Below are positions 8,260 to 38,251 of a stretch of DNA of 38,573 nt, piece by piece. The stretch is from NCBI GenBank assembly GCA_022969215.1, contig JALJPA010000016.1, forward strand, positions 1 through 38,573, read 5' to 3'. The stretch comes from Colwellia sp. (lineage in GTDB: Bacteria > Pseudomonadota > Gammaproteobacteria > Enterobacterales > Alteromonadaceae). The notes below the pieces were generated by a model, which saw only the letters and a program-made list of their open reading frames with translations, did not search any database and had not been told where the DNA came from. The position numbers and the translations under genes are program-made. Numbering within the stretch: the first letter of the stretch is position 1; each line of letters opens with the position of its first letter.

Positions 8260-8694
8260 TTAAAAAAACCTCATTAAGTCGTTCCACTGTTCAACGCTTG
8301 CACCATGGAAAACATTTTTACAAGCTGCCGTTACTAATTTCTGATAACAATCACGCCTTTCTTCTTCAGTCATTTTTGCATAACTTATTGAAGTTGGTTT
8401 TAATTCAAAGCGTATATTATCAGGAAGAAATACTTGCTTTACATAACCAGCAGACATTAATAATTTATCTTTGGTTAATTGTATTTGATCTTTGTTTACG
8501 TTTTCATCACCGTAATAATGCTTTGCACAATATTTAAAAAACACATGAATTTTCTGAAGCAAAGGGTAATTATGATCAAGCGTAATATCAGCTTTATAAT
8601 GATCACCGATTTTAAGCTTTTTCATTTGTTCAAGATCTTCTTCAGAAGCAGGCCAAAATTTGTTGTTAGCCGTTCTGATTAGATTAATTTTCAT
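8260..8694 (-). CDS. DUF1367-family phage protein
   Basis: 144 residues from the ATG at 8694; a TTG seven bases further up is less likely. The pattern fits DUF1367, found in the nin regions of lambdoid phages: N-terminal INLIRTANNKFWPAS, a basic helix (LLQKIHVFFKYCAKHYYG), and the block ELKPTSISYAKMTEEERRDCY in the C-terminal third, followed by a helix ending DLMRFF. The molecular role of DUF1367 is not established. It overlaps the HTH gene upstream by 11 bp and lies in the same leftward unit as the nucleases. Confidence 0.7.
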   Translation of the reverse strand: MKINLIRTANNKFWPASEEDLEQMKKLKIGDHYKADITLDHNYPLLQKIHVFFKYCAKHYYGDENVNKDQIQLTKDKLLMSAGYVKQVFLPDNIRFELKPTSISYAKMTEEERRDCYQKLVTAACKNVFHGASVEQWNDLMRFF

Positions 8695-8956
8695 TAGCAA
8701 CAATCAACCTTGAATTAGGTGTTTTGCTAATATCTTTAACTTTGTTTAGGTCCATAAGATAAATAATATCTAGTCGGATAGTTGCTAAAGTCACCCTTGC
8801 TTTTTCAGCTAAGAAGCCAATGGTTCTTTCTCCTGTTTTTGCTAAATCAATGATTAAATTGTGTCTATCTTCAATTGATAATTTATCGATTAAACCTGAA
8901 GATGGTCTATGTATTTTTCCACTGTAAATACTTTGAATTGAATTTATATTTAACAT
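8684..8956 (-). CDS. Small winged-helix-like DNA-binding protein
   Basis: 90 residues. Residues 35-75 (LAKTGERTIGFLAEKARVTL, then a second helix IRLDIIYLMDLNKV) have the spacing of a winged helix-turn-helix, with a short final strand pair (DISKTPNSRLIVAN). This is like the small phage regulators that help loading or transcription. The assignment is by pattern only. Located between the small zinc protein downstream of deformylase and the DUF1367 gene. Confidence 0.6.
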   Translation of the reverse strand: MLNINSIQSIYSGKIHRPSSGLIDKLSIEDRHNLIIDLAKTGERTIGFLAEKARVTLATIRLDIIYLMDLNKVKDISKTPNSRLIVANEN

Positions 8957-8958
8957 GA

Positions 8959-9105
8959 TTATTTACCTTTATTTTTATTGGCGTCTTTAGCTTTATCATT
9001 ACGCCAAACTTTGTTTTTACACGTGTTGTTAAAAAACATTCTTCGCTTGGTGCCATAGAATTTTTTACCACAACCACAAACGCATTCTTTTTCAGTTATT
9101 GCCAT
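8959..9105 (-). CDS. 48-residue cysteine-rich (zinc) protein
   Basis: This short gene fills the space between deformylase and the HTH gene. Its ATG shares one base with the deformylase stop (TAATG). It encodes ECVCGCGKKFYGTKRRMFF followed by NNTCKNKVWRN and a lysine-rich end. Four cysteines in a CxCxC...C layout, with an Arg-Arg and a Trp-Arg, match small 'cut/paste' zinc-finger peptides common in phages. Probably binds nucleic acid; exact function unknown. Confidence 0.65.
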   Translation of the reverse strand: MAITEKECVCGCGKKFYGTKRRMFFNNTCKNKVWRNDKAKDANKNKGK

Positions 9106-9515
9106 TAAATTGTAATCCCATTCAAATGATCTATTTCATGCTGAACACAAAAGGCAGTTAAAGCCTTGCATTTTCTGCTAATAGGCTTCCAATTCTCATC
9201 AAACCCAATTACCACGACTTGGTTATCTCTCTTTACTTTTACTTGCTTACCTGGATATGACAAACAACCCTCAACAGAGTTTTTAATTTTACCTGAACGT
9301 TTTGTTATTACAGGGTTAATAACTACCCCCATAAAGCCATTGCAGTTTATTAGTATAATCCGTTGCAAGCAACCTATCTGGTTGGCGGCAAGTCCTATTC
9401 CTGTGGTTTTTGATAACTCTAAACGCATTTCAGCAACAACATCTGAAACATCAGTATTTAGCGGCACATTATCTGCGATTTGCTTTAGTGTTGGAAAACC
9501 CTTTTGTACAATCAT
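9105..9515 (-). CDS. def: Peptide deformylase (viral type)
   Basis: The enzyme removes the formyl group from the N-terminal methionine of nascent proteins, using a metal ion. All three family motifs are present: GIGLAANQIG (39-48), EGCLSYPG (82-89, Cys84 a metal ligand) and HEIDHLNG (126-133, His126 and His130 as ligands, Glu127 catalytic). At 136 residues it ends almost directly after the third motif. It therefore lacks the C-terminal helix of bacterial enzymes, as known for phage deformylases. First gene of its leftward unit, with GGAG upstream and a promoter/operator at 9545-9572. Likely helps the ribosome cope with high phage protein output. Confidence 0.95.
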   Translation of the reverse strand: MIVQKGFPTLKQIADNVPLNTDVSDVVAEMRLELSKTTGIGLAANQIGCLQRIILINCNGFMGVVINPVITKRSGKIKNSVEGCLSYPGKQVKVKRDNQVVVIGFDENWKPISRKCKALTAFCVQHEIDHLNGITI

Positions 9516-11567: not shown

Positions 11568-11717
11568 TTTTAATTACCTTCTAGTTGTTTAAATAGTTTC
11601 ACCCAAAAACCCCAATTAAGGGGTATCAGGGGTTTATCAAGCTTCAACGCCTAAGCTCCACTTATAAACATTACCCTCCACACTAGGTTTCAACGGGCAC
11701 TTTTTAGGTTGGATTAT
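11568..11717. other. Intergenic spacer between 11567 and 11718
   Basis: About 150 bp without a convincing gene. It holds the hairpin at 11609-11624 and otherwise AT-rich sequence with stop codons in all frames I checked by eye. Confidence 0.5.
11609..11624 (-). terminator. Leftward intrinsic terminator after the clamp/FtsK-gamma gene
   Basis: Read leftward: ACCCC, loop TTAATT, GGGGT, then TTTTGGG. The stem is short (5 bp) but GC-only apart from the closing pair, and a T-run follows at once, so partial termination is plausible. Confidence 0.5.
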
Positions 11718-12626
11718 TTACTTATCAACTAAGACTTCTCTTGCTCCATTGTGACCAGGAGCAGAAACAACACCTTTAATTTCCATTTGTTCAACAATTC
11801 TTGCTGACCTGTTGTAACCTATGCGAAATTTACGCTGTACACTAGATATTGAAACCCTTCCTGATTCTTTAATAAAAGTAACCGCTTCATCATACAAAGG
11901 ATCTAAATCAGGGTTTTCATCTTTTAATTCTGAACGTCTATCAATTTCGCTTTCTATATCTTGATCACCACCACCAAAAGAAGCAAATTCAGGAAGTTCA
12001 ACAGGTTCAATTTCGCCTTTTGATGGCATAATTAAAGCAACAATTTCTTTTTCATAACCACCAACAGCAACAATATATTTATCAACACCACAAAACATAA
12101 GGTTAACAGCTGGAATATTTGAGCTTAAACATATACTAGCCAAGTCTTTTATGTACAGAGGATTAACACAAATCGTTGATACAGGCTCATAGCTTATACC
12201 TTGAAAAATCCTTTTTGTATTTGGGTAAATACCATCAACATTAGAAATATATTCAACATGATAAATGCGATCGGTTTCTTCTGGCTCTTCTTCTTTAAAC
12301 CAATCAACAACATGTTCTTCAGCATAAAGAATATAAGCTTTATCATCAATTATTTGTATTTCAGTTAAAGGCCGTTTATCTCTTGTTTTTGATTTTTTAG
12401 ATGCTGTTAAAAGTTCTTTTGTTATTGGCAATATATACTGATCATCAGTAAAACCGTATTCATCATAAATAGAAACTAATCTATGACCATCAGTAGCGGT
12501 TAATATAACGCCTCTTTTATCCGGGTGTGACTTTATATGAAAACCGTTAAGATAATAACGAACATCATCTTTAGCCGCAAAAGCCGCCAACACTTGAAGG
12601 TAAGCTTTGTTGAATTTTACTTTCAT
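11718..12626 (-). CDS. Sliding-clamp-like protein fused to an FtsK-gamma winged helix
   Basis: 302 residues. Residues 1-203 resemble part of a DnaN-type sliding clamp: [40 protein letters not shown] (the clamp ATDGHRL signature), and near 156-202 a strand-helix block ending VALIMPSKG that parallels the VVMPM end of a clamp. A charged linker (206-240) follows. Residues 241-302 are an almost standard FtsK gamma domain ([46 protein letters not shown]), which in FtsK reads KOPS sequences. It is much shorter than a three-domain clamp. It sits between the dead exonuclease gene and the M15 gene, downstream of the Exo/annealing pair. Inferred role: loading or orienting phage or host replication proteins on DNA at sequence signposts. 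Confidence 0.8.
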
Positions 12627-12686: not shown

Positions 12687-13247
12687 TTATTTACTGTTTA
12701 TAGCAAAAAATACTTTTGCTGAAGAGGCTGCGTTTACCAATGAATCAGAATTATCTTCTGCTTGCTGATTTGTATAATGTGCAAAAGCATCAGATAAAAT
12801 AAGTGATTTATTACCAGTATCATCTTTAGCCATTTTCATTGCACAAAAATGATTTTCTTTATTATCATTCCATGCTTCTTGATGTACATCAGTGCTAAAT
12901 CGTTTTAAGGCAATGCGGATTATCCGACTATTAAACTGCTTGTTTGATGAAACAACAGTGCTAGCTTCACGGACCATATTCAAGAAAACCTCAATAGCTA
13001 CACTTTCAGCAATACCTTCTTTTTCAGCACGTTCAACAGTTATACCATGAACATCAATTGTTTCTTGTGGAATAGTCCAGCCATCAGGACGAATTAAAAC
13101 GTCCATGTCACCAATTATTTCTTGTGTTTCAGCATTACAAAGAACAGCGGCTAACCTTACAATGTGCGGTTGGCCTTCATTGTTTGATCTTTCTCTCCAA
13201 AGTGGCAAGCCGTTTGTTTCAGTTTTAAAGCTAAGTAAAGTTTTCAT
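12687..13247 (-). CDS. DnaQ-like (DEDDh fold) protein with lost catalytic residues
   Basis: 186 residues aligned by eye to phage/bacterial DnaQ-type 3'-5' exonucleases: an ExoI-like TETNGLPLW (9-17), QPHIVRLAAVL, DVLIRPDGWTIP, DVHGITVERAEKEGI, the FNSRIIRIALKRF block (105-117) and a C-terminal NSDSLVNAA. The catalytic set is broken. The first Asp is Lys8 (FKTET where FDTET is usual) while Glu10 remains; the second Asp is Asn106 (FN for FD). The His is Ser167 and the last Asp is Asn172. The reading frame, start and fold signature are intact, so it is a pseudoenzyme rather than a decayed gene. Possible jobs: a non-catalytic subunit of a polymerase- or clamp-binding complex with the neighbour. 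Confidence 0.8.
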   Translation of the reverse strand: MKTLLSFKTETNGLPLWRERSNNEGQPHIVRLAAVLCNAETQEIIGDMDVLIRPDGWTIPQETIDVHGITVERAEKEGIAESVAIEVFLNMVREASTVVSSNKQFNSRIIRIALKRFSTDVHQEAWNDNKENHFCAMKMAKDDTGNKSLILSDAFAHYTNQQAEDNSDSLVNAASSAKVFFAINSK

Positions 13248-13297: not shown

Positions 13298-15061
13298 TTA
13301 AATAGTTTCAGTAGTTACAACATAAGGAACTGATCCTTCACAAATTGCATAAGCAATAACCATTGCATCATCATCATTAATAGGGCATGTGCTAACTAAG
13401 TAATTTGCTATTTCTTGTGGAATGGTTCTAGTATCTTCATTCGTATTACAGGTTTCAATTTCATCAGAAACATCAGCAAAACGACTAGCTAAACGTTCCT
13501 TAACTGGTGTTTTAACACTATCTTCAACACTTGCAATATAAGGCTTTGAGTTATCAAGTTTAACTTCAGGCTTTGCTTCAGGCTTAACTTCAACCTTTGT
13601 TTCAGATTCTTCTTTTAACTTCTGTTCAGCTTCAACCTTTTTGCGTTCTTCATCACGAATAGCTTGCTCTTGTAGTTCAAGCTTTTCAGCTGCTTCACGT
13701 TCTGCTTTTTGTTTTGCTTCAAATTCAATTTTTTCTTTCTCTAAACGTTTACGTTCAGCTTCTTCTTGTTCATGTTCAGAAATACGCATTTTGATCAAGT
13801 TGATAAGATCATCATTATCTTTAAGTATTAATGAGGAATGATCACTGAATAAAAATTTATGGTCTTTGGCTAGCTCGGTTAAGCTATCTAAATTTTTACG
13901 GATTATTTGAGATACTTCACTAGCTTCAATTTTGGCATTAGCAAGTAAAGAATTAACCGCTTCTTCCATTTTTTCAAAGCTTCGTTTTCCTTTTAATGCT
14001 GCGGCCCAATCGTTACTGTTAACATACAAACCAATTGATATGTCGTTAATCGATTCACTAAGTTTTCTTAAATGCTGATTAAAAGCGCCTTCTGCATTAT
14101 TGATGATTGAAAGCTTTTTAGCTTCTTTGTGAGTTTTTACAGCTAAATTTAATTTAGATTCGGCTTGTTGTAAAATGCCATCAGTAGTAGAAACATCGTT
14201 AACAAATGCTGAATAGCTTTCAAAAGCATTGGTAATATTTAATTGTTCCTGTTTTAACTTGGTTCTTGTTGTTTTAATGTTTTTAACAAAAGCTTCAGTA
14301 TCAGCAAAGTCTTGATCAGTTTCTAATATTACAGATAATTTTTCATCAATTGCCGCTTTTATTGCTGGTATGAATTCACCCAAATTTGAAACAACCATTG
14401 AACCTTCAACACTACATTGAATAACAGGAAAGCTTTCTTGTTCATTGGCAACAATAACTTCTTGTTTAGCTTTTACTTCATAATTTTTCAAATCTTCAGC
14501 GAATTGTTTTAAACCTTTAATTAGTTTTTCTCTTCGTTCAGGTATTGACACATAATAAAAACTTGCTCTTTTTTCAGTTGTTCCATCTGACACTACAAAT
14601 AAAACAGACTCAGCACCAAACACCATTAGCTGAAATTCTAATTGCCAATAATGCGAAGCTTCAAGAACTGAATTATTAACATTTTCAGCAAGAATTTCAT
14701 TCCATAACTTATGCTCAAAAACTGTTTTTTCATCTTCTGAAAGTCCATCAAGTGAAGCTAGCAGCTTTAAACCATCAAGTTCAATAGAACCTACAACGGG
14801 TTTGAATTCTTCCATCAGTTCAAATTCTATTATGTCTCTTGCGCTTTCTTCTGTTTGATGGCCCTTATCAAATAAAGACTGAGTAAAAGAACTAACAGCT
14901 TTTACTTTTCCTGTTTTTTTCTCTTTTAATAACTCAGTTCTACTTTTATATTTTGAATCACCCATCATTGCCGGTGCTTCACTAGCTGTTAAATACTCTT
15001 TACGAGCTTCTAACCATTCATCAGTTCCTTGAACTAGGTTTAATATTTTTACTGTTTTCAT
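13298..15061 (-). CDS. YqaJ-type viral recombinase exonuclease with long coiled-coil extension
   Basis: 587 residues. Residues 1-200 are a YqaJ/lambda-Exo-like nuclease: GTDEWLEARKEYLTASEA (12-29), KGHQTEESARDI (66-77), the catalytic LASLDGL (Asp105) and FEHK (115-118, Glu116 and Lys118), then YWQLEFQLMVF (138-148). Residues 210-430 are a helical domain recalling DUF1351. About 430-500 is a charged coiled coil (EEAERKRLEKEKIEF), and the end (540-587) is a small globular part. It resects 5' ends to give 3' single strands for the annealing protein upstream; the ATG overlaps that gene's stop (TAATG). Typical YqaJ proteins are about half this length, so the fusion is notable. Confidence 0.85.
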   Translation of the reverse strand: MKTVKILNLVQGTDEWLEARKEYLTASEAPAMMGDSKYKSRTELLKEKKTGKVKAVSSFTQSLFDKGHQTEESARDIIEFELMEEFKPVVGSIELDGLKLLASLDGLSEDEKTVFEHKLWNEILAENVNNSVLEASHYWQLEFQLMVFGAESVLFVVSDGTTEKRASFYYVSIPERREKLIKGLKQFAEDLKNYEVKAKQEVIVANEQESFPVIQCSVEGSMVVSNLGEFIPAIKAAIDEKLSVILETDQDFADTEAFVKNIKTTRTKLKQEQLNITNAFESYSAFVNDVSTTDGILQQAESKLNLAVKTHKEAKKLSIINNAEGAFNQHLRKLSESINDISIGLYVNSNDWAAALKGKRSFEKMEEAVNSLLANAKIEASEVSQIIRKNLDSLTELAKDHKFLFSDHSSLILKDNDDLINLIKMRISEHEQEEAERKRLEKEKIEFEAKQKAEREAAEKLELQEQAIRDEERKKVEAEQKLKEESETKVEVKPEAKPEVKLDNSKPYIASVEDSVKTPVKERLASRFADVSDEIETCNTNEDTRTIPQEIANYLVSTCPINDDDAMVIAYAICEGSVPYVVTTETI

Positions 15062-15828
15062 TATGCTTTCCCTACGTTGTTAATAATTTCTTTTTGTTGA
15101 TCAGTTAATTTAACTTTCTTTTCAAAGAATTTAATTATCTGCTCTGCCGTTTTTTCTTTTGATAAAATTTTTGCCTCCCCTGCTGGGAAACTTTGATTAA
15201 ATAATTCTTCTGAACAAAAATCATCTTCATTAATCTGATCTTCTTGTTCAACTTGTTCTTCATAAAAACCACCATCATCATCTTCATCACCAACTGTAAT
15301 ACCAAGAGCACCAGTTAACGTATAACGGCGAAGGTAACTAATTGTTGATGCTATTTGCTGTATTTGGTTCTTGCTACCACTTTGATCAGCAAAAGCGCTC
15401 ATTGAAGTTTGTTCTTGATGCCCTTCTTTATGAGTAATAATACAAATAACGGTCATTAAATTGTTTTCGCTGCTTTGTTCGTAGCGATAAGATAAGCCAG
15501 CTTCTTTTAAAGTAGGTCTGATTACTCTCGCTATATCTTCAAGCTTTGCATAAGTGTATTCAGTTTTACCGGTCTTTGTTTTGAATGATGCTAAACCTGT
15601 TTTTTTAATCGTTGGTATTATTGATTGGAATATAGATAAGCCTTCGAAAAAACTTCTTCTAGCGTTTTTAGCTTCAAATCTATCTTGAAGATCCATTAGC
15701 TTTTCAAGCTGCGCAATATCAGCGCCTTTTTCAACTGCCATTTGAATCAAGCCCATATACTGCTCTTGCTGTACAGCTAAAGGATGAATTGTTTCATCCT
15801 TGGTTATTATTTCAGTTTTTTTATTCAT
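15061..15828 (-). CDS. erf: ERF-family single-strand annealing protein
   Basis: 255 residues. The ERF core runs about 45-190: FEAKNARRSFFEGLSIFQ, KTGKTEYTYAKLEDIARVIRP, YRYEQSSE, and the GSKNQIQQIASTISYLRRYTL/TGALGI signature (151-177), followed by an acidic patch (DEDDDGG). I choose the ATG at 15828: GGAG lies 11 bases upstream and it overlaps the preceding TGA (ATGA); an in-frame ATG at 15843 has a poor site. Paired with the YqaJ exonuclease immediately after it, this is a Red-like recombination module, which could also drive replication through annealing. Confidence 0.9.
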   Translation of the reverse strand: MNKKTEIITKDETIHPLAVQQEQYMGLIQMAVEKGADIAQLEKLMDLQDRFEAKNARRSFFEGLSIFQSIIPTIKKTGLASFKTKTGKTEYTYAKLEDIARVIRPTLKEAGLSYRYEQSSENNLMTVICIITHKEGHQEQTSMSAFADQSGSKNQIQQIASTISYLRRYTLTGALGITVGDEDDDGGFYEEQVEQEDQINEDDFCSEELFNQSFPAGEAKILSKEKTAEQIIKFFEKKVKLTDQQKEIINNVGKA

Positions 15829-16025
15829 TCTGTGTAACTCCATAAAGTAAGGTTATCTTCTAACATTTGTTCAACAATTTGTTCTTCAGTAAAGTTTTTG
15901 TGAAACTTCATAACGCGACACTGTTTAGCTGATGAATCATAGCCAATCGGCTTTAGTGGATTCTTGGCGATAATTTCACGCCCTGCTTCAGGTGCGGTTA
16001 TTGTTGTGCTTAAAAAAGTAATCAT
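15825..16025 (-). CDS. 66-residue hypothetical protein
   Basis: Small protein (MITFLSTTITAPEAGREIIA...) with a predicted beta-alpha pattern and a C-terminal acidic helix (EEQIVEQMLEDNLTLW). Encoded directly before the ERF gene with a 4-bp overlap. No family recognised; it may be a partner or regulator of the recombination pair. Confidence 0.55.
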   Translation of the reverse strand: MITFLSTTITAPEAGREIIAKNPLKPIGYDSSAKQCRVMKFHKNFTEEQIVEQMLEDNLTLWSYTE

Positions 16026-19187: not shown

Positions 19188-19195
19188 GGGGAATG

Positions 19196-20251
19196 ATGAA
19201 ACTTAAAGTATTAGATTTGTTTTCTGGTATTGGTGGTTTTAGCCTTGGCTTAGAAAGTACAGGGTATTTTAAAACTAATTCTTTTTGTGAGATAGAAGAT
19301 CACTGTATAAAGGTTCTAAATAAAAATTTTAAGGGCGTTAATATATTTAATGACATAACAAATCTTAATTTAATGCCTAATGATTACGATGTATTTACTG
19401 GTGGTTTTCCATGCCAAGACATAAGTATAGCAGGGAAAAACAAAGGTATAGACGGTGAAAAAAGCGGATTGTGGAAAGAATATAAAAGACTAATTAAACA
19501 AGGGAAACCTAAATATGCAATTATTGAAAACGTGTTCGCTCTGCTTGGCAGAGGACTTGAAATTATCTTACAAGACCTTGCCGAAATCGGGTACGATGCG
19601 ACTTGGACGCTGTACGATACAAGGTACTTTGGAAAGCCTCAGCGTAGGCGTAGAGTTTACATTATCGCAGTTCGTGACGGAATCCCTGCCGACTCCGATA
19701 TATTCGAGGTTGGACTTAGAGATTTACCAACAAGTAAACCCATGCTGGAATCTTTCAACAAGGGCTTTAGATGGGATTTTAAGGAGGGAGAAGGAGACAA
19801 ACACACCTTTACCTTTGTCACTCGCCAACGCAGTAATGAGTTTAAAGAAACAGGTCTGAGTAGCACTTTAGCAAAAAGAGATTATAAGTCTTATGTTGAT
19901 TTGGTTTTACAGAATGGAATAATCAGAAGAGTAATGCCAGAGGAAAGAATGTTATTGCAAGGTTTCCCTAGTGATTGGTTGAGTGACTGCGGATTAACAA
20001 AAAAAGAAAAATTCACATGTAATGGTATGAGTGTTCCTGTAGTAAAATACATAGGCGAATTAATAAGAAAATTTGATATTAAGCAATCATCACCAATAGG
20101 ATCAAGTTTCTTTTCTGATGGTAAATATAGATTTTTAGATGATAATGAAAAAAAATCTTATTTTAAAGATGGTGGCTGCGAATACGAATCAATTTTTAGT
20201 GTTGACTGCCTAAAAAGTAAAGAAGATTACGTTAATTTAATTGAAGGGTAA
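19196..20251 (+). CDS. dcm-like: DNA (cytosine-5) methyltransferase
   Basis: The 351-residue enzyme transfers a methyl group from SAM to cytosine C5. Visible motifs: I LDLFSGIGGFSLGLE (6-20), IV GGFPCQDIS (69-77, nucleophile Cys73), VI ENV (111-113), VIII QRRRRVYII (149-157) and X GMSVPVVKYIGELI; the target-recognition region lies between VIII and X. About 55 extra residues follow motif X. An AGGGGG ribosome site makes the second of two ATGs (19196) more likely than 19193. No partner restriction enzyme is adjacent, so it probably protects phage DNA. A GC-rich patch inside the gene (about 19530-19740) suggests recombination. Confidence 0.93.
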   Translation: MKLKVLDLFSGIGGFSLGLESTGYFKTNSFCEIEDHCIKVLNKNFKGVNIFNDITNLNLMPNDYDVFTGGFPCQDISIAGKNKGIDGEKSGLWKEYKRLIKQGKPKYAIIENVFALLGRGLEIILQDLAEIGYDATWTLYDTRYFGKPQRRRRVYIIAVRDGIPADSDIFEVGLRDLPTSKPMLESFNKGFRWDFKEGEGDKHTFTFVTRQRSNEFKETGLSSTLAKRDYKSYVDLVLQNGIIRRVMPEERMLLQGFPSDWLSDCGLTKKEKFTCNGMSVPVVKYIGELIRKFDIKQSSPIGSSFFSDGKYRFLDDNEKKSYFKDGGCEYESIFSVDCLKSKEDYVNLIEG

Positions 20252-23114: not shown

Positions 23115-25481
23115 TTAAACATCAGGAGTATCACCGCCGCCGTTAATAAAGTTTAGTGGAGTACTTCCAAACACTTTCACGTTTGCACCGTTTTTAATTA
23201 TGCCATCGCCTTTTATGCCTTTCAGTGCATCATTATCAACACCATCAACACCAAAGCCGGTACCAGTGCCATCTGTTTGACCGTTTGAACCAGCATCCCC
23301 CGGTGTAGCTAAAGCAGTGCCGACTATAACACCGCCAAAACCGCCAACACCAGGATTGATACCATCGCCACCATCACCACCATCACCACCAATACCACTA
23401 GATTCTATCCCTTGAACAAAGAAACCTACAAAACCACCTGAACCACCAGAAGGCGCACGTAAAAAGCCCTCTGCTGTTCCTGACTCTGGATCGGCACCAC
23501 TAAGATAAATTTCTGTATCGATACCTTGTGCATCGTAAACTATACCAGCATTTTCACCATTAGAAAGACCACCTAAAGCCGCCCATTCATCAACGCCCGG
23601 ACTCCAAACCAAAGCTTGACCGTTGCCACCTTTGCCCCCTTTTGCTGACCAATCAGCGGCATTTCTAAGTATGATTATTATTGTACTTCCAGCAGCAAAG
23701 CCCCCAGCTCTAACTGCTGGTATATTATTGTCAGTTGAATTAAAAATCCCACCGTCAAAAATAAAAGTAACATCAACGGCTGTTGATGGTGCGCCGGCAA
23801 ATATAAATAAATTTAATTCTGTAGCATTATTAATTACAAATACTGCACCTGAAGTTATTGCTGGTTGATATGACAACGCGCTAACATCGTATTCCCTACC
23901 CGTTTTAGTAAATTTAGGTTGAATTCTTAATATTTGCGCCCTTGTATTCTCACTTGGCAGACCATCAAAGCCTTGAATCCTTGGCGAAAAAACATTGACA
24001 ACATCACCAACATCAAAATTTAAGTTTCTTTCCTGAGTTTTCCAGCTGTATTTTTGTGGAGTCATACCGAAGCTTTGAACATATCGAGAAGTTAAAAGAT
24101 CAGCTGTACCTTTATTTATTAATGTTGAGCTTTTGAATTTCTTTGATTTTGGCTTTGTGCCATAAAATTCAACTGTTTCAAGTTCTGGCCTAATGGCAAC
24201 AGATGTTTTTTTGTAGCTTTGAGCATCTTCATTATTTGCTAGAAATGGTTTGTCATAACTGATAAACGCCCGACTATAACGAAGTTCTTCAACGTCAGCG
24301 ATTTTTAATGAATTAAAATCAATCTCTTTGCCTTCAGTAACGGTTGAAGATGATACTAACCATTGGCTAATTGCTTTTAGTTTTATTTCTCTTGCAATGG
24401 GATCGAACCACATTTGCATTAAATACGGTTCAAGTATTCTTATTATCGATTCATCTGCATCAACTGATTCATCATAAACACCATTTACTTTATCGCTTGG
24501 GTGCCATTCTGCGACCTCATCAAGCCAATCAGCAATAGGTATAATTGAACTAGGTACTTCAACAGATAAAAGCAAAGTCTCTAAAGCGGTTGCAATATTT
24601 TCATCATCAAAAGTTGTGCAGATATAAACATCATCACCGGCTGAATGATCATCAGCTACCGTTCTCGTTAATGTATTGGTAAATTCTGGCGCACCAACAT
24701 TATCACCCCTTGTTTTAACAGTAAGTGAAGCGGTTGCTGTTTGGTTATCTGTAACGGCGGTTACTGTCTGGTATTCGTCACCAATTCGGACAACATAGGG
24801 CGTTGATATTTGATTCCAATCGGTAACAGAATCAACAGGAATTGCTGTAACTGAGTCATCAATATCAAGTCGCAAAAAGCTTTCTTGTTCAGGTGGTATT
24901 TGTGCTTGATCAAATTCTATTCTTGCCAATTCATCAACGCATTCTAATCTGTATTTTCCAACATCACTAGTTGATAGCTTTCTTGCGGTGTAATATGCTG
25001 TTTGGCCATCAGTATTTACATCTAAGCTATTTGATTTTCTATATTTTATTACTCTAACTTCACGGCCTTCAATAACATTTCTATCCTTGAATTTACCAAA
25101 AAATGTACCATTATCTCTTGATGCAACGCCTCTTGCTCTTTCAGAATTTGGATCTAAACCGCTAAAGTCCTCGAAAGAAATAGTTGCTCTTCCACGTATG
25201 GCAAGACCTACATCAACTTGTAATTCTGTTGCACTTTCAGCAACGTTTGTAACATGGCGATAAAGTTCAGCAATTGGCAGTATTGGCGTATTTGGGGTGC
25301 AAAACCGATATGTTTTAATGACCGTTGCGCTAGTAACATCTTGAATAGGACAGCTTAAAGGTGTTCCAAAACCTTCAACACCTACTGTTTCCTCACACTT
25401 GCCGGTGATTATTGGCAAATCTATTTCGATAATATAGAAATGCTCTTGCGTTGGTTGTTTTCTTGTTGCTTCAAAAGTCAT
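23115..25481 (-). CDS. Tail hub / tip protein with C-terminal glycine-rich domain
   Basis: 788 residues. The N-terminal two-thirds are in the central-hub class: ITGKCEETVGVEGFGTPLSC, ELQVDVGLAIRGRATISFED, DVGKYRLECVDELARIEF, KSKKFKSSTLINKG, and GDVVNVFSPRIQGF near 510. After about residue 590 the sequence turns glycine-rich (KGGKGGNG, GGDGGDGGDGINPGVGGFGG), up to about 740, with a short closing part (STPLNFINGGGDTPDV). Glycine-rich ends of this type form polyglycine-II bundles that bind receptors in phage adhesins, so this gene may carry both hub and receptor contact. Eight bases from the next late gene. Confidence 0.75.
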   Translation of the reverse strand: MTFEATRKQPTQEHFYIIEIDLPIITGKCEETVGVEGFGTPLSCPIQDVTSATVIKTYRFCTPNTPILPIAELYRHVTNVAESATELQVDVGLAIRGRATISFEDFSGLDPNSERARGVASRDNGTFFGKFKDRNVIEGREVRVIKYRKSNSLDVNTDGQTAYYTARKLSTSDVGKYRLECVDELARIEFDQAQIPPEQESFLRLDIDDSVTAIPVDSVTDWNQISTPYVVRIGDEYQTVTAVTDNQTATASLTVKTRGDNVGAPEFTNTLTRTVADDHSAGDDVYICTTFDDENIATALETLLLSVEVPSSIIPIADWLDEVAEWHPSDKVNGVYDESVDADESIIRILEPYLMQMWFDPIAREIKLKAISQWLVSSSTVTEGKEIDFNSLKIADVEELRYSRAFISYDKPFLANNEDAQSYKKTSVAIRPELETVEFYGTKPKSKKFKSSTLINKGTADLLTSRYVQSFGMTPQKYSWKTQERNLNFDVGDVVNVFSPRIQGFDGLPSENTRAQILRIQPKFTKTGREYDVSALSYQPAITSGAVFVINNATELNLFIFAGAPSTAVDVTFIFDGGIFNSTDNNIPAVRAGGFAAGSTIIIILRNAADWSAKGGKGGNGQALVWSPGVDEWAALGGLSNGENAGIVYDAQGIDTEIYLSGADPESGTAEGFLRAPSGGSGGFVGFFVQGIESSGIGGDGGDGGDGINPGVGGFGGVIVGTALATPGDAGSNGQTDGTGTGFGVDGVDNDALKGIKGDGIIKNGANVKVFGSTPLNFINGGGDTPDV

Positions 25482-36805: not shown

Positions 36806-38251
36806 TTATTCTTCAGGAATATCATCTTTATCATCTAATGGATTACCATCATCATCTTTTAAAGATTCATCATCTTCTTCATCATCAAAGGAAATATTTT
36901 CAACCTCTATTTTAAGACCTATTTCTTCAAAAACACTTTCAACAGCTAGTTCATCAGCTGCTGCAGTGGATAGGCCATCGATGACTGTCTTAAAGGCAGT
37001 CGCTTTATTTACCATTATTGTGGATTCTTCGAGTTGAGTTAGTGCTTTTTGTGGTGAATATTCCACTTCACTATCTTCAGGTAAATCTAAAATCCCTGCA
37101 TCAGCTAGTATGCTCAATGCCCTAAGAAGCCAGTTTTGGCATTCTTGTTCTTGCCGATCTAGAATTAAAGCGTTCCAAGCTGCTTTATCTTCTGTGCCTG
37201 CTAATTGCCCGGTGCCTTTACCCAATAAAATCCTAATGGGAATACCTGTAACACCAGAAACTTCTTCTACTGCAATATCGAATGCATCCCTTGGAGATGC
37301 TAGACCAGGTTGCAACATGTTTGCTTTCATTTTATTTAAACGAAGAACATCTTCATAACCATTTTGAAAGTTTTCAACGTTTTCTTTTAATCCTTTTAAT
37401 GCTTCAGTACCATTATCAATGGTTGCATCTTTATCAACTTCTAATGCTAATTTTTGTCTAGCATTTCTATAATACGCTTCACCTGAACCGCCTCTAACTT
37501 TATCTTTATCAATCAAGCAATTCCAAGGTTGTTGCAGTGAACTTCTACCTTCAACTGATGAATCAAGCGCACCTTCTGCCATGTGAACAACTCTTGACCA
37601 ATGGACAACGTGAGAAGTAAATATTGCTTCTTTGTTTTTGTCTTGATTAATGTTTGTTGTTTGTAGTTGATAAAGCTCAGGTAAGCCAAAACGAACAGAA
37701 GCCGCATCAGTATCCCATTTTGTGATCTCTATACCATCGTAATTGTAAGGATTGAAATACAATGATTTAAAATCATCTTTTCTTGCGCTGCCAAGTGGCA
37801 AATGTAAATCAGTACCATCTGGAATACCAATAAGTAAAACTGAAAAATTACCTATACGGTTTAAAATATCGGCGCGTTCTAATGCTTTAAACATGCCTCT
37901 ATTTTTTAGAATGCGCAACTCTTTTTCTAGAATTACATCATCACCAACTTTAATTTCTGGCAAATCACGCCAACAAGCCTTGGCCACTTTTTCAACAACA
38001 GTGCCGGCAATGCCACCACGTTTAAACATGTTGTAATAATCGCTAAAGAATAAATCAGTCCCATAACCAAACAATATATTATAATCGCGTTTGCCATCAG
38101 GTGAAACGCCATAAGTACCACCACCAAAACCGCGGCGTATAGTTGATGTGATTTGATTTAACAGCATACCAAAATAACCATCAGCTTTTTTCATATCGGC
38201 TGTGTATTCAAAAGTATTAGTTTCTGGTTTTTTCTTAAAAAAATTAAACAT
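36806..38251 (-). CDS. Portal protein (DUF1073-like)
   Basis: 481 residues with the portal pattern: YGTDLFFSDYYNMFKRGGIAG, RNRGMFKALERADILNRIGN-like segment (exact order in protein), FSVLLIGIPDGTDLHLPLG, ELYQLQTTNINQDK, and VSGVTGIPIRILLGKGTGQLAG near 350-371. It ends with a very acidic tail (DDEEDDESLKDDDG). The dodecameric portal forms the DNA entry vertex and docks the terminase. Three bases separate it from the terL stop. Confidence 0.9.
   Translation of the reverse strand: MFNFFKKKPETNTFEYTADMKKADGYFGMLLNQITSTIRRGFGGGTYGVSPDGKRDYNILFGYGTDLFFSDYYNMFKRGGIAGTVVEKVAKACWRDLPEIKVGDDVILEKELRILKNRGMFKALERADILNRIGNFSVLLIGIPDGTDLHLPLGSARKDDFKSLYFNPYNYDGIEITKWDTDAASVRFGLPELYQLQTTNINQDKNKEAIFTSHVVHWSRVVHMAEGALDSSVEGRSSLQQPWNCLIDKDKVRGGSGEAYYRNARQKLALEVDKDATIDNGTEALKGLKENVENFQNGYEDVLRLNKMKANMLQPGLASPRDAFDIAVEEVSGVTGIPIRILLGKGTGQLAGTEDKAAWNALILDRQEQECQNWLLRALSILADAGILDLPEDSEVEYSPQKALTQLEESTIMVNKATAFKTVIDGLSTAAADELAVESVFEEIGLKIEVENISFDDEEDDESLKDDDGNPLDDKDDIPEE

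Follow-up and report, generated by a model that had tools for sequence, protein, structure and literature searches.

Reading of the KOPS octamer and activation of Xer recombination by the FtsK γ domain have been studied in Escherichia coli. Excerpts of PMC2680272 state that joint change of R1300, E1303, and E1306 leaves FtsK blind to KOPS, and that R1300 is required for KOPS reading and not for Xer activation. The contacts of γ with XerD involve Q1288, R1289, R1292, I1293, G1294, and N1296 (PMC5052618, Table 1), and the excerpted text of that paper adds that the nine-residue stretch RQFRIGYNR, when fused to XerC, stimulates dif recombination. For the E. coli β clamp, the residues of the peptide pocket are used here as given in an excerpt of PMC11139829. 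The role of single γ-like genes in phages is stated to be unknown in the excerpted part of PMC8190038. The excerpt of PMC7996906 describes phage RdgC with no mention of FtsK, and that of PMC5963079 names RdgC and FtsK in unrelated contexts only. Among the papers listed in a search by title and abstract, with most subscription journals outside its scope, none describes a clamp–γ or an RdgC–γ fusion. Both parts of the putative clamp–γ protein analyzed here are already known, and we found no earlier description of their being joined.

The gene is a single ORF (302 amino acids plus stop) in the window, which is the whole stretch of 38,573 nucleotides that was analyzed, and is laid out as follows.

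11718–12626, minus strand: fusion gene, mini-clamp / linker / FtsK γ (ORF, Pfam, AlphaFold2)
12018–12626, minus strand: mini β-clamp module, residues 1–203 (PHROG 3007, family profile, AlphaFold2/Foldseek)
11907–12017, minus strand: linker, residues 204–240 (AlphaFold2 confidence, dN/dS)
11727–11906, minus strand: FtsK γ winged helix, residues 241–300 (PF09397 and AlphaFold2)
11609–11631, minus strand: terminator-like hairpin, 3′ of the fusion gene (pattern count)

It encodes a two-module phage protein, predicted to consist of a truncated β clamp, a flexible linker, and an FtsK γ winged helix. A preliminary description of this DNA had already proposed two modules in one gene, and both are real as judged by Pfam, PHROG, the family profile, and AlphaFold2/Foldseek. 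The AlphaFold2 model of the full 302-residue protein has a mean pLDDT of 90.1, with values below 50 at linker residues 230–237. Pfam gave no match in the fusion protein to the RecA-like motor domain (FtsK_SpoIIIE or FtsK_alpha) or to RdgC (PF04381); a genome scan found one RdgC, on a different contig. Defence-system models, run on three proteins, gave no match. The terminator-like hairpin pattern is at chance level around the fusion gene (4 vs 3.2 expected).

In Pfam, the central domain of the clamp (PF02767, DNA_pol3_beta_2) was placed at residues 16–52 with 26.1 bits against a cutoff of 27, and in the genome scan with 27.7 bits, slightly above that cutoff. A search of the PDB with the single fusion sequence reached β clamps at E values of 0.014 or worse. 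At the family level, residues 1–203 align with positions 1–185 of 190 in PHROG 3007 (E = 1.4e-22), and a profile of 10 family members, comprising the window protein and nine others that are 21 to 76% identical to it, matched E. coli-type β clamps in the PDB, the best entries having E values from 3.7e-23 to 2.5e-22. RYYLN, T.GH, and a final MP are common to all ten members. The main profile match spans residues 136–299 of β, and β before residue 132–136 is unmatched. The C-terminal part of the profile also matches β 307–366, weakly when taken alone (14 bits, i-Evalue of about 0.2), through a shared N..Y and a VMPMR-type block; an alternative alignment puts this part on the first half of domain 3. 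Judged from these alignments, the phage module corresponds to domain 2 of DnaN and roughly one half of domain 3, with nothing equivalent to domain 1. Of the preliminary description as a whole, the clamp-like module, the γ module, the kept KOPS-contact residues, and the absence of a polymerase stand, and the clamp part has to be narrowed to these domains. With domain 1 absent and domain 3 only about half present, a DnaN-type ring that encircles DNA cannot be assumed; the mini-clamp lacks the set of three domains with which DnaN closes its dimeric ring. The TIGR00663 DnaN equivalog model gave 26.3 bits and thus did not reach its cutoff of 137.65.

The AlphaFold2 model of residues 1–203 (pLDDT 88.2, pTM 0.86) provided the structural match to DNA clamps that had been foreseen for this part of the protein. 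Foldseek returned 50 PDB matches, all with titles of β clamps or of entries taken to contain one, with a best E value of 6.7e-8 and a TM of 0.61 by query length; the full-protein model gave 50 matches of the same kind (best E = 1.4e-7). The rmsd of these matches is about 5–9 Å, the matched part of β not being given in the output, which indicates that the arrangement of parts differs from that in DnaN. The alignment of the 203-residue model takes about 273 columns on β, which would agree with a missing half domain.

PHROG 3007 is labelled as a RusA-like Holliday junction resolvase, also in RefSeq phage records (e.g., NC_054650.1 and NC_042037.1), and its members appear in several GenBank twins as DNA polymerase III β subunit or β clamp domain protein. 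The resolvase label looks wrong, and we prefer the clamp label because of the family profile and the structure results.

Three stretches of the module align with the peptide pocket of the E. coli clamp.

12543–12560, minus strand: RYYLNG, residues 23–28, with the equivalents of E. coli R152 and L155 (alignment)
12477–12497, minus strand: ATDGHRL, residues 44–50, equivalents of E. coli T172, G174, H175, R176, and L177 (alignment)
12018–12035, minus strand: LIMPSK, residues 198–203, equivalent of the E. coli V360–R365 end block (alignment)

The second and third of these contain the clamp signature and the clamp-like terminal MP block that had been pointed out from the sequence before. At 11 of the 15 pocket positions that could be aligned, the residue is the same as in the DnaN fragment of the host itself, compared with 29 of 144 positions outside the pocket (Fisher p = 5e-5). 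Conservative changes affect three of the 15 positions (V247I, V360L, and R365K), and M364 is S202 in the mini-clamp. The equivalents of N320 and Y323 (N155 and Y158) are matched in the profile alignment and unmatched in a second alignment, and V344 has no assigned equivalent. Across 49 family members, G47 is kept in 49, T45 in 48, M200 in 47, and H48 in 45; P135 is kept in 47, being part of one of the two scan patterns (13 of 49 rows). R23, Y25, and L26 are invariant across the same 49 members and RYYLN is invariant or nearly so, RYYLN being part of the other scan pattern (exact pattern in 38 of 49 rows). By alignment, therefore, the mini-clamp keeps most of the clamp peptide pocket. No clamp-binding motif was seen in the phage Erf, YqaJ, DnaQ-like, and NinB proteins, so that any clients would need to come from the host. 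The scan covered 47 phage ORFs, with what we take to be the clamp-binding motif patterns, and gave four loose matches, none of them in the proteins just named.

The C-terminal module was identified by PF09397 (FtsK_gamma), which matches residues 241–300 and scores 87.6 bits, the cutoff being 30.6 (E = 4.5e-25; 1.9e-25 in the genome scan), and its pLDDT is 92–97. This bears out the FtsK-γ-like C terminus of the preliminary description, including the stretches at residues 268–285 and 290–299 that were cited for it. The KOPS-reading residues R1300, E1303, and E1306 of E. coli FtsK are kept as R276, E279, and E282, in line with the KOPS-contact residues expected there, and all six XerD-contact residues are kept as Q264, R265, R268, I269, G270, and N272. 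Neither of the outcomes that the preliminary description had named as refuting it, a clamp part without structural match to DNA clamps or a γ part without the KOPS-contact residues, was thus obtained. Most of the latter lie in one stretch, which differs from its E. coli counterpart by a single change, Q1290 to K.

11808–11834, minus strand: RKFRIGYNR, residues 265–273, counterpart of E. coli FtsK 1289–1297, RQFRIGYNR (alignment)

The γ domain is nearest to host-genus FtsK, with 49 of 60 residues identical to locus L011; it shares 46 of 60 residues and 123 of 180 bases with the host's own FtsK.

The fusion gene lies in a phage genome, with the following genes around it.

12687–13247, minus strand: DnaQ/ε-like protein, upstream neighbor of the fusion gene (Pfam, PHROGs)
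13298–15061, minus strand: YqaJ/RecE-like exonuclease (Pfam, PHROGs)
15061–15843, minus strand: Erf-type single-strand annealing protein (Pfam, PHROGs)
8260–8703, minus strand: NinB/Orf recombination mediator (domain scan)
9105–9515, minus strand: peptide deformylase (PHROG 2890, E = 2.3e-32)
19193–20251, plus strand: DNA methyltransferase (PHROG 116 and 363)

On the same strand, the order is Erf, YqaJ/RecE-like exonuclease, DnaQ-like protein, and clamp–γ, with NinB/Orf and an HNH nuclease further on. The order Erf–YqaJ–DnaQ–clamp is kept at locus L003, and DnaQ–clamp at L042; the mini-clamps whose neighbors were inspected (L003, Rb1, and Eta) lie beside recombination or replication genes. In the window DnaQ-like protein, the D of motif I is replaced by K, the D of motif II by N, and the H and D of motif III by S and N (motifs numbered as we take them to be). 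These DEDDh residues are intact in L003 and L042, and the window protein looks catalytically dead by sequence. Across 50 window ORFs scanned, Pfam or PHROGs revealed no integrase, no RdgC, and no polymerase beyond the DnaQ-like exonuclease-type gene, which agrees with the phage without its own polymerase that had been supposed. The terminase (17–1817) and portal (36806–38251) genes lie at opposite contig ends and point in the same direction, a placement that suggests a near-complete contig of a phage whose genome, about 38.6 kb long, is circularly permuted. The window ends share no exact repeat in the length range of 12 to 200 bases.

Starting from the modules, the residue conservation, the neighborhood, and the constraint observed for this protein, we infer DNA tethering, recruitment of clients, and timing: the most probable role of the fusion protein is that of a docking hub tethered to DNA within the recombination module, a tentative reading to which we give a probability of roughly 40%. 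The γ domain would bind double-stranded DNA, somewhat favoring the host KOPS octamer, and would keep the mini-clamp there with neither a clamp loader nor a closed ring. The pocket of the mini-clamp could then recruit host proteins with clamp-binding peptides (polymerases, mismatch repair), which would act on DNA being processed by the phage Erf/YqaJ/NinB module. In favor of such a hub we count the clamp fold and family, the kept pocket, the KOPS and XerD residues, the constraint on γ, the Erf/YqaJ/DnaQ run, and the partner that γ mostly has in other viral fusions, which is RdgC. Counted against it are the number of fusions found (two, among the matches listed), a closest relative without γ, phage DNA that is not rich in KOPS, phage recombination proteins without a clamp motif, and, within the pocket, the change at M364, the equivalents of N320 and Y323 that only one of two alignments matches, and V344 with no equivalent assigned.

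The partners of γ were surveyed in a scan of viral sequences, in which 459 loci were confirmed and the best 80 kept; some contigs among these 80 are near-duplicates. RdgC–γ accounts for 47 of the best 80 of 459 (purpose-built RdgC profile; among L121–L200), which suggests repeated phage use of a chromosome-polarity reader. The other 33 comprise a mid-protein γ family (16), short γ proteins (4, 3, and 1), N-terminal γ (3), FtsK-like proteins (2), DUF5906/VapE-like proteins (2), a phage metallopeptidase (1), and a clamp fusion (1); nine of the proteins surveyed were put through Pfam. RdgC plus γ was confirmed by Pfam in six proteins (L024, L026, L029, and L031–L033), of which five come from named phages and the sixth from host-genus genome G027.

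Some further arrangements were seen along the way. L161, L175, and 14 similar viral loci encode proteins of mostly about 290–360 amino acids with γ toward the middle, L175 having no other Pfam domain over the cutoff. FtsK γ occurs with a DUF5906/VapE-like protein at L172 (Pfam) and L186 (grouped with L172), and with a phage metallopeptidase at L184. In Xanthomonas phage Rb1 (L037, 1952–3561), an RdgC-annotated gene lies immediately 5′ of the mini-clamp gene and SSB, so that two γ partners can share one module.

Among 66 distinct phage and prophage γ domains outside FtsK (window excluded), R1289 is conserved in all 66 and Q1288 in 65, whereas R1300 is kept in 48 and lost in 18, and all three KOPS residues are present in 44; since the pattern used in the γ scan partly fixed positions 1291–1299, only 1288–1290, 1300, 1303, and 1306 are free evidence. 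Loss of R1300 with R1289 retained would be explained by contact with XerD, or by a general tether to DNA, no less well than by strict reading of KOPS. Of the two fusions, L042 has N at the R1300 equivalent and keeps six of six XerD-contact residues. The γ domain might accordingly be present for its XerD-contact surface, with host XerD activated or occupied and the mini-clamp bringing the fusion protein to newly made DNA, either for resolving phage genome multimers or for upsetting chromosome dimer resolution. We consider this unlikely, although these counts and the intact XerD residues of both fusions speak for it: every residue of γ that touches XerD also touches DNA (excerpt of PMC5052618), so that conservation of these residues does not single out XerD, and XerD half-site matches in the phage (3 vs 5.4 expected) are not above chance. 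The window contains no match to E. coli dif within 3 mismatches, and integration at dif was rejected. A search for host XerD in G000 gave no match over the cutoff.

KOPS itself was sought as GGGNAGGG, in the phage and in likely hosts as the preliminary description had recommended. The window holds one such octamer, compared with 0.84 expected.

23894–23901, minus strand: sole GGGNAGGG occurrence in the window (GGGTAGGG), within a tail fibre gene (pattern scan)

This is chance level, and the idea that KOPS is enriched in the phage was dropped. The search in hosts turned out differently: in a one-contig congeneric genome (G036), the octamer occurs 93 times and its reversed pattern 37 times, and the orientation of 87 of the 93 sites agrees with two polarity switch points chosen from the same data, so that the host genus very likely uses the octamer. 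In 40 virus records (39 with a γ-bearing locus plus L041, which has none; several are fragments), GGGNAGGG occurs 106 times vs 69 for the reversed control. With regard to one-strand bias, KOPS reaches 92 of 106 and the control 62 of 69, and the excess is therefore not counted as support. Thirteen of the 40 records have no site; many γ-bearing phages do without KOPS on the DNA seen, several records being fragments. Because KOPS is at chance level in the phage and L042 has lost R1300, we only infer, from its residues, that the fusion protein may read KOPS.

A host that uses the octamer could also be the target. The fusion protein would then occupy host KOPS and block the loading of FtsK, with the clamp as a scaffold, and division would be delayed or a chromosome region freed. 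The polarity in G036 is in keeping with this idea, as are the closeness of the window γ to host-genus FtsK, with three of three KOPS residues, and the occurrence on viral contigs of short γ proteins without another recognized domain. However, R1300 is lost in L042 and the clamp as a partner is left unexplained, and such competition with FtsK seems to us rather improbable.

The clamp family was surveyed in the same manner. At least 357 viral relatives were confirmed among at least 600 candidate stretches, and of the best 80 of these relatives one (L042) has γ and 79 do not. L042, with 61% identity and the same clamp–γ architecture, is the single other phage case that came out of the search for the same fusion urged by the preliminary description. 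A further viral scan with both fusions as queries gave 10 loci and no new fusion; this makes two clamp–γ fusions, as identified by sequence, among the matches listed. Among the matches listed, the nearest relative is L041, which lies on the contig of L003 and is 76% identical over residues 1–217; it ends after a glycine-rich linker and has no γ, so that tethering is dispensable in the mini-clamp family. No convincing match to a γ remnant was found in the 16.6 kb surrounding L041/L003 or behind the γ-less relatives L003, L043, L044, and L204. Candidate γ sequences behind L046 and L047 were rejected, as the tblastn alignments overran stops and γ is absent there. Of 39 host-genus genomes scanned at E 1e-12, one matched, the window's own. 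Among the 80 loci listed in a genome-wide scan, L204 (Shewanella oncorhynchi) is a mini-clamp without γ, and the other 79 are matched mainly in the short RYYLNG/ATDGHR stretch and are DnaN-like by that stretch.

A largely retained pocket on a module that has lost domain 1 could alternatively serve as a decoy, soaking up host clamp-binding proteins and slowing host replication, with γ for localization on DNA. Yet mini-clamps without γ are the rule in the survey just described, and the recombination and replication genes beside the mini-clamps of L003, Rb1, and Eta fit a positive role equally well; we think it improbable that the protein acts in this way.

A bolder reading, drawn by analogy and in our view a long shot, is that γ replaces the clamp loader, so that clamps would be loaded in a set orientation, at a site chosen by sequence, and without a loader. 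RdgC encircles DNA as a ring, and the same loading logic would thus hold for RdgC–γ. The γ domains bound at one site would gather mini-clamps around the DNA, much as three FtsK γ domains at a single KOPS site cause the ring to assemble on one flank of it (excerpt of PMC5052618). If true, phages would be using FtsK γ as a portable module for ring loading, joined to proteins that encircle DNA.

Comparison of the window with L042 gave dN and dS values of 0.22 and 1.18 for γ, 0.30 and 1.39 for the clamp, and 0.83 and 0.61 for linker residues 215–240 (24 codons), all of them rough because dS is near saturation. Judged by these values, γ and the clamp seem to be under constraint, unlike the linker. 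A γ domain captured from bacterial ftsK and carried without function would suit the patchy presence (two fusions among the matches listed, nearest relative without γ) but is already disfavored and very improbable, as γ is as constrained as the clamp, with the linker as internal contrast. A γ tree of 60 columns, too short to resolve, places the window near host-genus FtsK γ and L042 among RdgC γ domains. These positions would fit two origins of the fusion; the similar linker start in the window and L042 would fit a single one.

With the docking hub as the preferred reading, the compact protein lets FtsK γ be tried as a free DNA-reading module, and also lets a clamp without its ring-closing domain be tried when tied to DNA by other means. 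The role of single phage γ genes, raised in the excerpted part of PMC8190038, becomes a testable question with this fusion.

Compared with known systems, the N-terminal module shares with the DnaN β sliding clamp its fold, the RYYLNG and ATDGHR signatures, and most of the peptide pocket, and differs in having no domain 1, in the loss of about half of domain 3, and in a score far under the equivalog cutoff. The phage mini-clamps of PHROG 3007 belong to the same family along residues 1–203; γ is found only in L042 among the best 80 viral matches, and the window is the second case. The γ domain of E. coli FtsK (1261–1329, PF09397) is matched far above the cutoff, with three KOPS and six XerD residues retained, whereas the window γ has no FtsK motor, is placed behind a clamp module, and is only predicted to bind. 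In the small terminase of Bacillus phages Sam46 and Sam112 (excerpt of PMC8190038), FtsK γ is likewise joined to a phage DNA-handling protein, but γ is N-terminal, the partner is a terminase, and the host is Bacillus. The phage RdgC–γ proteins (KLER1-1 gp60, Vibrio phage D53, and Pseudomonas phage CF69a) resemble the window protein in carrying a C-terminal γ on a recombination protein, and differ from it in that the partner is RdgC instead of a clamp.
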